DNA of 26,120 bases from a virus: positions 1-26,120 of the IMG/VR virus record IMGVR_UViG_3300030333_002954. One strand, written 5' to 3'. The notes beneath the pieces are model-generated. The model saw only the letters and a list, made by a program, of their open reading frames with translations, was not told the DNA's origin and made no database searches. A program made the translations under genes and the position numbers. Position 1 is the stretch's first letter, and every line of letters begins with the position of its first letter. Positions 7,620 through 10,206 of the stretch are shown in pieces.

Positions 7620-7809
7620 CCTTAATATTCATGATCTTTAAAAACAATTCCATCTTGCGGTCGATGGCCAGTAATAATATCCACATGCGCTTGAACCACA
7701 TCCATACATACCACTTCATCAAAAAATAAAATACGACACCAAAAAATGCGACCATGATCACATCCATTACACCGGTTATCATTACCTCATATAAATACCA
7801 TTTTGTCAT
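7597..7809 (-). CDS. Small membrane protein
   Basis: This 70-residue protein is very rich in aromatic and aliphatic residues. It has one or two membrane helices (about residues 8-33 and 34-50) and an acidic tail KDDEDVSN. The start overlaps the methyltransferase end by four bases (ATGA type). With its downstream partner it forms a pair of small membrane genes inside the DNA-metabolism operon. Function is unknown. Confidence 0.7.
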   Translation of the reverse strand: MTKWYLYEVMITGVMDVIMVAFFGVVFYFLMKWYVWMWFKRMWILLLAIDRKMELFLKIMNIKDDEDVSN

Positions 7810-8702
7810 GTTGTCTCCTCTTGTTTAATTCTTTTCATTATTTCATGTGCAACTTGTGGTACTATTGCGTTTCCGAGTCCTGTAAGTCTGTCCACCCGAT
7901 CGGGTATCCCATTAGCCACTCTACCCACATCGGGTTCAGCGTTCCAGTACCTTGCTGGCTTTTCGTAGGAAACATATTTTTCATGTGTACCGCTTGGCTC
8001 AGATTCACTGAATGCATCGAGCCTTCCTTCTGTTGGCTGCTTTTTAATTTGTCTGTAAATGTGTCCGCTACTGTTGGTGTTGGAAACATTTTTGGATGAA
8101 ATTTTTTTACTGCCACTTGCTCCGCTAATGAACCCGGCAAGTCTTTTCTGCCGATGCTTTTCCGAAATTTTATCCTTTTTGCTCTTCTTTCTTTTGTTGG
8201 CTCTATTTGTACTGTTCCCGGCGTAAGCCACAATCCATATCCTTTTTCTTCGATGCCAAGCTCCCACTTCGTCTGCGCCGATAATTTGCCATTCACAATC
8301 GTACCCGATTTCGGTAAGGTCGCAGAGTACTCGTTCAATTCCTCTATGAATGAGCATTGGTACGTTTTCAATGAGCGCATATCTTGGTCGTACTTCGCTA
8401 ATAATGCGGTGCATTTCTGACCATAGACCCGACCTTTCGCCATCTATACCAGCTCCTTTGCCCGCTTGACTAATATCTTGACATGGGAAACCACCAGTAA
8501 TAAGGTCAATATTCTTAAAGTCATTTCCATCCAGTCTTGTAATGTCATTATATATTGTGACTCCGGGAAAATTCTTGTTAAGTACTTTCTGAGCATATGT
8601 ATCTATTTCGCAGAATCCAACCAGCTCAAGATCATCACCCCAACACCACTGTGCTGCCAATGCAAAGCCACCAATGCCACTAAATAGGTCAAGCATTCGC
8701 AT
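7806..8702 (-). CDS. C5-cytosine DNA methyltransferase
   Basis: This 298-residue enzyme transfers methyl groups from S-adenosylmethionine to cytosine in DNA, probably to protect phage DNA from host restriction. Visible motifs are I (DLFSGIGGF, residues 5-13), IV (GGFPCQD with nucleophile C74), VI (ENV, 112-114), VIII (GAWHRRKR, 147-154) and X (GLGNAIVPQ, about 275-283). The region between VIII and X, which should read the target sequence, is Lys/Ser-rich and low in complexity. A second 193-residue frame runs through exactly that part. The start follows the upstream zinc-ribbon stop by one base (TAATATG). No cognate restriction enzyme is evident, so it looks like an orphan methylase. Confidence 0.95.
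   Translation of the reverse strand: MRMLDLFSGIGGFALAAQWCWGDDLELVGFCEIDTYAQKVLNKNFPGVTIYNDITRLDGNDFKNIDLITGGFPCQDISQAGKGAGIDGERSGLWSEMHRIISEVRPRYALIENVPMLIHRGIERVLCDLTEIGYDCEWQIIGADEVGAWHRRKRIWIVAYAGNSTNRANKRKKSKKDKISEKHRQKRLAGFISGASGSKKISSKNVSNTNSSGHIYRQIKKQPTEGRLDAFSESEPSGTHEKYVSYEKPARYWNAEPDVGRVANGIPDRVDRLTGLGNAIVPQVAHEIMKRIKQEETT
7862..8443 (-). CDS. Overlapping frame inside the methyltransferase gene
   Basis: A 193-residue open frame lies entirely within the methyltransferase gene in another register. It has an ATG at 8443 and AAAGGAG nine bases upstream. The product has ordered, non-repetitive features: GYGLWLTPGTV, PGSLAEQV, MFPTPTVAD and LNPMWVEWLMGYPIGWTDLQ. I recall very similar motifs in proteins annotated as hypothetical or methylase-related in phages. 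The GWTDL block is the shifted reading of the methylase RVDRL block, so each may simply mirror the other's conservation. It is either a true overprinted gene or a recurrent shadow. Confidence 0.4.
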   Translation of the reverse strand: MAKGRVYGQKCTALLAKYDQDMRSLKTYQCSFIEELNEYSATLPKSGTIVNGKLSAQTKWELGIEEKGYGLWLTPGTVQIEPTKERRAKRIKFRKSIGRKDLPGSLAEQVAVKKFHPKMFPTPTVADTFTDKLKSSQQKEGSMHSVNLSQAVHMKNMFPTKSQQGTGTLNPMWVEWLMGYPIGWTDLQDSETQ

Positions 8703-9139: not shown

Positions 9140-9354
9140 TACCCAATCTCCTCTCTCACTTTTTGCGTTATATCATGCTCTTTGCCATTCTTATCTTTAA
9201 AGCATGCAAAATGGACTTCACTATTCTTGCGTTGTGTCATTAATTCTTTCATGTCTTGCACTAGTTCATCGAAACTAAACGCCAGTACCAGAGCGTCTTC
9301 CCACTCTTCACGCTCATTATCATATGCTATGCTGCCAGCGTAGTGTGCTTTCAT
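9139..9354 (-). CDS. Small acidic hypothetical protein
   Basis: This is a 71-residue protein. The first half is acidic and helical (NEREEWEDALVLAFSFDELV). The second half has a short basic strand-like segment (SEVHFACFKDKNGKEHD). It overlaps the upstream nuclease-like gene by four bases (ATGA), and its stop forms TAATG with the next start. The family is unknown. Confidence 0.65.
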   Translation of the reverse strand: MKAHYAGSIAYDNEREEWEDALVLAFSFDELVQDMKELMTQRKNSEVHFACFKDKNGKEHDITQKVREEIG

Positions 9355-9737
9355 GAAAACTCCGGAAATCGGTCATAGGAATAAAACCACTTACGATTCT
9401 TGGTCTGGTTATTCTTGCCTGTAGTTATCGCAAGGCTCAATGCATGCGAGTTGTCATATGGGTAGTATGCAATAATGTTTTTTGGCAAAAAATACACGGC
9501 CACTACGTCTATTCTATTGGTATTTTTATATTTTGTAAGGCTTACTTCAATTGATGTACCACGTTTTAACTCCGTTACCGTTTTGATCTGGACACGTTTC
9601 ATTATACCGCTGGTTAATTCTACCACCAGATCTACTTGGTCAGAGTCAACAACAGGCGCATAAATATTATATCCTTGCTCGATCAAACTTTTTTGCACTG
9701 CTAATTCGCCCATTTTACCTTTATTGAGACTGTGCAT
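9351..9737 (-). CDS. PD-(D/E)XK endonuclease-like protein
   Basis: This 128-residue protein has a compact restriction-endonuclease fold signature: NKGKMGELAVQKSLIEQGY with E11, then DQVDLVVEL with D36, then RVQIKTV with Q50-x-K52. The pattern resembles the group I intron/PDDEXK_5-type nucleases. I start it at the ATG of MHSLNKGK because GGAG lies eight bases upstream. The frame is open to 9764 but the added nine residues lack a signal. It overlaps the next upstream nuclease gene by 17 bases. It may act in DNA repair, junction cleavage or host DNA attack; the substrate is unknown. Confidence 0.8.
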   Translation of the reverse strand: MHSLNKGKMGELAVQKSLIEQGYNIYAPVVDSDQVDLVVELTSGIMKRVQIKTVTELKRGTSIEVSLTKYKNTNRIDVVAVYFLPKNIIAYYPYDNSHALSLAITTGKNNQTKNRKWFYSYDRFPEFS

Positions 9738-10206
9738 AGCGATTTCTCCATAGCTGCTGCACACTCTTTAATTGAAATTGTTCTAGCGTATAGAATTGTC
9801 CATAGCCAGTATCTTTTATATTGGTCTTGCGCAGTAGGTCTTGTGCTGTGGCACCGCCCTGTATGGTATAGTGCGGTAGGTCAGCTGTTACTAGTAGATA
9901 TATATCTGCATCTTCTAGCTTTTTATGTAGTTTGCATTGTAAGTAACCGGGGTCATAACTGGTGGTCTTTACGTCAACCTTGCGGCCACTTATGATCAGG
10001 TCATATCCTCTTCTGTGTGGTCCTACAGAAAAGTCTGGGAATCTATTGAAATATTTGGCGACAGCGATCTCGCCAGCCATTCCATTTATGTCTGGATCAA
10101 GTTTTTGTTTGCGAAAGCTCGTTCCATTTTTTTGGTTCTGAATCATCCTTTCCGTTCCGCTCAACAATGCCATGTTCAGTTCCAACTGGTTTAGTGTTAT
10201 CTTCAT
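9721..10206 (-). CDS. PD-(D/E)XK nuclease-like phage protein
   Basis: This 161-residue protein contains NGMAGEIAVAKYF (E46), RRGYDLII (D69) and RKVDVKTT (D78-x-K80), the complete PD-(D/E)XK core. The later DADIYLLVTADLP strand fits the same fold. I recall similar proteins as hypothetical genes in many phages. If the first ATG is used, it overlaps the upstream gene by 110 bases; later methionines at residues 12 and 21 would reduce this. MALLSG has GGA seven bases upstream. The role is probably nucleolytic DNA processing. Confidence 0.8.
   Translation of the reverse strand: MKITLNQLELNMALLSGTERMIQNQKNGTSFRKQKLDPDINGMAGEIAVAKYFNRFPDFSVGPHRRGYDLIISGRKVDVKTTSYDPGYLQCKLHKKLEDADIYLLVTADLPHYTIQGGATAQDLLRKTNIKDTGYGQFYTLEQFQLKSVQQLWRNRYAQSQ

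Follow-up and report, generated by a model that had tools for sequence, protein, structure and literature searches.

The window, that is, the whole stretch of viral DNA analysed here (26,120 nucleotides), carries on its minus strand a 298-residue ORF with the motifs of a C5-cytosine DNA methyltransferase (MTase; hereafter alpha), within which a second ORF of 193 residues (hereafter beta) is entirely contained in the +1 frame (table 1). A preliminary description of the locus had already given both ORFs, their coordinates, the internal ATG, the ribosome-binding-like AAAGGAG nine nucleotides upstream of it and the interlocking motifs of the two frames, and all of these were found exactly as claimed. 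The same description had located the overlap in the target-recognition region (TRD) of the methylase; this is correct but understated, as the nested ORF also covers methylase motifs V–VIII and, in a second methylase class, the whole gene. Given the TAG that lies in its frame immediately 5' of the ATG, beta has no upstream extension. In many relatives the start is kept at methylase codons 83–87, with AGGAG, GGAGG or AGGA 6–9 nucleotides upstream; the start codon itself varies (ATG, TTG, GTG), and the Shine-Dalgarno sequence is poor in some. Two small minus-strand ORFs, at 9351–9764 and 9721–10206, neighbour the methylase: one is a PD-(D/E)XK nuclease (PF11645, 6.7e-12), the other has a weak match to a Type II restriction enzyme (PADLOC, 0.0033), and together they are possible nuclease neighbours of the methylase.

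Table 1. Features of the two overlapping reading frames, in window coordinates
Feature	Coordinates	Strand	Basis or remark
Putative alpha subunit (298 aa): C5-cytosine DNA methyltransferase with motifs I–VIII and X in its frame	7806..8702	minus	
Putative beta subunit (193 aa): ORF nested in the +1 frame, holding TRD and motif IX	7862..8443	minus	
AAAGGAG, ribosome-binding-like site of beta	8453..8459	minus	ATG at 8443, 9 nt downstream
In-frame TAG, immediately 5' of the beta ATG	8444..8446	minus	
Alpha catalytic core, motifs I–VIII, aa 1–160	8223..8702	minus	Pfam, M.HhaI match, AlphaFold, Foldseek
Alpha aa 165–275, separating motifs VIII and X: low complexity, predicted disorder	7878..8210	minus	pLDDT mostly <50; substitution periodicity of the other frame
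Alpha motif X, LGNAIVPQVAHEIMKRIK region, aa 276–294	7821..7877	minus	Invariant L276, G277, N278, V281, P282; pLDDT 92–94
Beta N-terminal region, aa 8–56, overlapping alpha motifs V–VIII	8276..8422	minus	hhalign to ArV1 067b; predicted short strands
Beta TRD unit FPTPTVADTFTDKLKSSQQKEGSMHSVNLSQAV	7988..8086	minus	Identity 0.67 in beta frame vs 0.34 in methylase frame
Beta motif IX, LNPMWVEWLMGYPIGWTDL	7883..7939	minus	Aligned with LNPAFPEWMMGWPTGWVT of single-chain enzyme, E 1.3e-10

The methylase frame taken by itself is only part of a monomeric C5-MTase. Alpha matches the Pfam family DNA_methylase (PF00145, 3.7e-50) over residues 1–209, with motifs I–VIII including PCQ and ENV, and M.HhaI at 7e-20. 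The AlphaFold model has a confident core at residues 1–160 (pLDDT about 90–98, with a dip to ~80 at residues 71–90) and a confident motif X helix (92–94), with disorder between the two, and Foldseek aligns it to M.HhaI (1e-16) over only ~165 of 327 residues. Since alpha is disordered between motifs VIII and X, the methylase-frame model holds no folded TRD; the folded TRD and motif IX that stand beside motifs I–VIII in a single-chain C5-MTase are absent from alpha, whose residues 165–275 are predicted to be disordered and are under selection in the other frame. Beta, for its part, matches phrog_1008 (annotated 'DNA methyltransferase') at 1e-16 over residues 6–187. Modelled alone, it reaches a mean pLDDT of 65.7, with five short strands predicted in its N-terminal region; this model had no fold match in the PDB, which speaks neither for nor against a subunit, and a PDB sequence search with beta found nothing. 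Searched against Pfam, the nested ORF matched no family and no HNH, and a hidden homing endonuclease was rejected on this ground. Against ordinary monomeric MTases a beta-type profile gives a weak match, confined to motif IX (RRLTPxECERLQGFPDDW), and the LNPMWVEWLMGYPIGW of beta corresponds to motif IX of single-chain relatives. The N-terminal region of beta aligns by hhalign with protein 067b of Arthrobacter phage ArV1 (6e-19), the alignment continuing into the TRD.

The identity of the nested frame is clarified by relatives in which the same parts are arranged differently. Protein gp71 of mycobacteriophage IrishSherpFalk is one chain of 391 residues, with motifs I–VIII followed in frame by PTPTxxD units (LLPTPTTQDGSNCGGPSQFNRNSLPLN and further PTP units), a motif IX of the form LNPxxxEWMMGWPxGW (LNPAFPEWMMGWPTGWVT) and motif X (IGNGVVPQQ). 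Its residues 194–390 match phrog_1008, the beta family, at 1.3e-57, and a profile of nested proteins aligns with the chain across TRD and motif IX (hhalign, 1.3e-10). One unit, PTPTxQDxxNxGGPSQxxRNxxPLN, belongs to the methylase frame of the IrishSherpFalk enzyme and to the +1 frame of two loci of the window's class (L103, L004). In the Arthrobacter phages ArV1, KHumphrey and Orcanus the alpha ORF ends after motif VIII and an overlapping +1 ORF carries TRD, IX and X; these pairs are an intermediate state. Two Mycobacterium phage relatives, L283 (single chain) and L289 (split), share 95–97% identity in two long blocks that flank a single 1-bp indel at the junction. The split form occurs in three further relatives, and a search of genome contigs with the single-chain query returned one relative. 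Because single-chain and split relatives hold the homologous parts within one MTase, the nested frame represents the enzyme's TRD plus motif IX, and it very probably encodes the DNA-target-recognising half. Within the IrishSherpFalk gene itself, a +1 stretch (L260:659–1189) is open over motifs V–VIII and resembles the N-terminal region of beta; it may be a relic or still be in use.

The TRD units themselves are shared among loci. Seven shared unit types show identities of 0.67–1.0 in the beta frame and of 0.34–0.54 in the methylase frame, save for one type (0.87) known from two instances only. The unit FPTPTVADTFTDKLKSSQQKEGSMHSVNLSQAV recurs in classes 1 and 2 and in a Lacticaseibacillus phage. 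The variable, shared PTPTxxD units of beta suggest exchangeable specificity modules.

The preliminary description had proposed that the second frame might encode a regulator. A regulator or inhibitor of the methylase, overprinted on it but unrelated to it, would account for a beta N-terminal region without known counterpart among monomeric MTases, and for a beta that matches no family of known function beyond 'DNA methyltransferase'. Yet the TRD and motif IX of beta are homologous to the TRD–IX–X half of single-chain and split MTases; as single-chain relatives bear the beta sequence as their own TRD, IX and X, the regulator reading finds no support, and we hold it to be highly improbable. The partner that the same description offered beside the regulator is borne out.

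Constraint on the synonymous codons of the methylase was measured on relatives collected through its first 86 residues, a part free of any overlap with the nested ORF (L090–L169). For a set of 16 among the nearest of them, with the window counted in, we asked how often the codon was shared where the amino acid was shared. The second position of beta codons coincides with the methylase wobble base, so that selection on each frame is separable. Outside the overlap the same-codon fraction was 0.415, against 0.389 expected from codon usage, and downstream of the beta end it was 0.428 against 0.386; in the core overlap (motifs V–VIII) it rose to 0.616 (0.36 expected) and in the motif IX block, which reads LNPMWVEWLMG in the other frame, to 0.878 (0.349 expected). 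All disjoint pairs agreed on the overlap constraint (7/7; Fisher p = 1.7e-13). A substitution periodicity test, which mixes locus sources and includes five rows found through the second frame, gave a control region where the methylase wobble base is the most variable (0.56) and a TRD where methylase position 1, the beta wobble, is the most variable (0.63) and the methylase wobble the least (0.45). An earlier synonymous test on loci found through the second frame, and biased in that respect, gave a like picture and is not relied on. Constraint thus falls on both frames over motifs V–VIII, and on the nested frame in the stretch from VIII to X.

The other reading put forward at the outset was that of an annotation shadow, with conservation of the +1 frame merely forced by the methylase protein and its codon usage. 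In the nearest relatives, codon shuffling gave few or no +1 ORFs as long as the real one (p = 0.003, the lowest value attainable with 300 shuffles). Long +1 ORFs relative to shuffles are frequent over C5-MTases, some clades without the motif included, and this, along with the missing Pfam family for beta, speaks for a shadow. It fails, however, on synonymous codons constrained inside the overlap only (0.62–0.88 vs about 0.35 expected), on a second frame that stays open in nearly all relatives and on a start region that is kept (codons 83–87 in class 1, Asn2 in class 2); moreover, both TRD periodicity and modules follow the +1 frame, and the modules stand in frame in single-chain enzymes. We therefore give the shadow very little credence; what lies in the second frame is a genuine gene under selection.

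The preliminary description had also suspected that the overlap is widespread, and it proved to be so. In IMG/VR, a search with only the nested protein retrieved 552 viral stretches, and a second methylase class (NELALFAGAGGG...) has at least 600 relatives. Among 75 class 2 loci analysed, 74 carry a +1 ORF over nearly the whole gene, and in 72 this ORF is longer than all 100 codon shuffles. Here the beta ATG overlaps the methylase start (ATGAATG in 44/75), and Asn2 of the methylase is AAT in 75/75, never AAC, the beta ATG being thereby kept. In three class 2 loci (L008, L014, L070) the methylase frame is broken near the same G-rich codons, at residues ~80–85, near the position where the beta of the window starts; such breaks may reflect phase variation, slippage or an error of sequencing. 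Named carriers include phages of Paenibacillus larvae, Acinetobacter, Klebsiella, Lacticaseibacillus, Mycobacterium and Synechococcus, as well as a Leptospira plasmid. A match to phrog_1008 is also shown by the betas of both classes (1 and 2) and by those of Paenibacillus and Arthrobacter phages. A third methylase class (HFFAGIGVWS...) shows this overlap too, in Pseudomonas phage PMG1 (L179) and Aeromonas phage AeroV_348 (L263); in PMG1 the annotated gene is the +1 frame and not the methylase frame. In related sequences, the canonical LQGFPDDW methylases L154–L169, +1 ORFs exceed codon shuffles though without LNPxWVEW. A literature search, not exhaustive, found no paper describing overlapping two-frame methylases of such breadth.

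Overall, we regard it as highly probable that the locus is an overlapping two-subunit C5-cytosine DNA methyltransferase of the M.EcoHK31I kind, with a catalytic alpha and a recognition beta pairing in trans. In such an enzyme, alpha would provide AdoMet binding and catalysis (motifs I–VIII), a disordered linker in place of a TRD and the C-terminal motif X helix, and beta would supply its conserved N-terminal region, motif IX and a TRD whose PTPTxxD units are interchangeable. Both would be translated off one mRNA, beta from the internal ATG with its own Shine-Dalgarno sequence, and would associate in trans into one active methyltransferase, as in M.EcoHK31I. Alternatively, a +1 ribosomal frameshift or transcript slippage could yield a single fused chain, with motifs I–VIII from alpha followed by TRD and IX, and no separate beta. 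The fused order does occur in nature as a single chain, a 1-bp indel interconverts the forms, and in the Arthrobacter phages, where the +1 ORF includes motif X, a frameshift would yield a complete enzyme. The methylase frame of the window, however, contains motif X, as it does in classes 1 and 2, and is open through to it, and the +1 frame is shut by the TAG just 5' of an ATG with a Shine-Dalgarno sequence. As a fused product would be devoid of motif X in the window's class, assembly in trans is favoured, and the fused chain appears improbable. For the two-subunit enzyme we infer that both proteins are made and form a heterodimer, that beta arises from an internal start instead of a frameshift, and that specificity is set by the PTPTxxD units.

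Extending this to phages at large, we lean towards the view that a large share of the C5-MTases now listed as one protein each are obligate two-subunit enzymes, their DNA specificity encoded by exchangeable modules in a hidden +1 frame, indels of +/-1 nucleotide interconverting single-chain, split and overlapped forms. Many phage 'DNA methyltransferase' annotations would then cover half an enzyme, with the specificity half missing or listed as spurious, and cloning or specificity prediction that starts from nothing but the annotated ORF would fail or be misleading; the native two-frame DNA would be needed for it. The family would also offer a rare series whose ends are a single chain and a pair of fully overlapping genes, on which the origin of overlapping genes and dual-coding constraint may be tested.

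A gene hidden out of frame in a phage methylase has been described before. The ShiLan element, an out-of-frame HNH gene inside a phage methylase gene (PMC11855218), resembles the window in this arrangement; yet it is a homing insertion, whereas the second frame of the window is TRD plus motif IX, with no HNH match. Existing annotation has touched on the nested frame in several places: the phrog_1008 label makes no mention of a second frame or subunit, and gp50 of Paenibacillus phage Diva ('g49 internal gene') and ArV1 067a/067b record an internal or overlapping ORF beside the methylase, their annotation notes assigning no two-subunit function. Among two-subunit enzymes, Lee et al., in 1995, are said to have found the small chain of M.EcoHK31I encoded inside the large gene in a different frame, and in this frame relation the window is alike, its small ORF lying within the large one in another frame and under selection. 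The distribution of motifs also agrees: in M.EcoHK31I (YGGCCR) the large subunit carries I–VIII and X and the small polypeptide IX (PMC3404938), as do the large and small chains of the window. The two may differ in the TRD, which is selected in the small-subunit frame here and was placed in the large subunit of M.EcoHK31I by published prediction (PMC3404938). M.AquI (CYCGRG) is likewise split after motif VIII, with a small subunit comprising the variable region and IX; unlike the window, where motif X is in alpha, this subunit carries X as well (PMC3404938), a layout that the Arthrobacter phage pairs resemble (IX and X in beta). The overlap of the M.EcoHK31I type is a known kind, far wider than the few studied cases, with hundreds of viral sequences carrying it; the additions to it are this breadth, the selection that places the TRD in the small-subunit frame, and the series of single-chain, split and overlapped forms.
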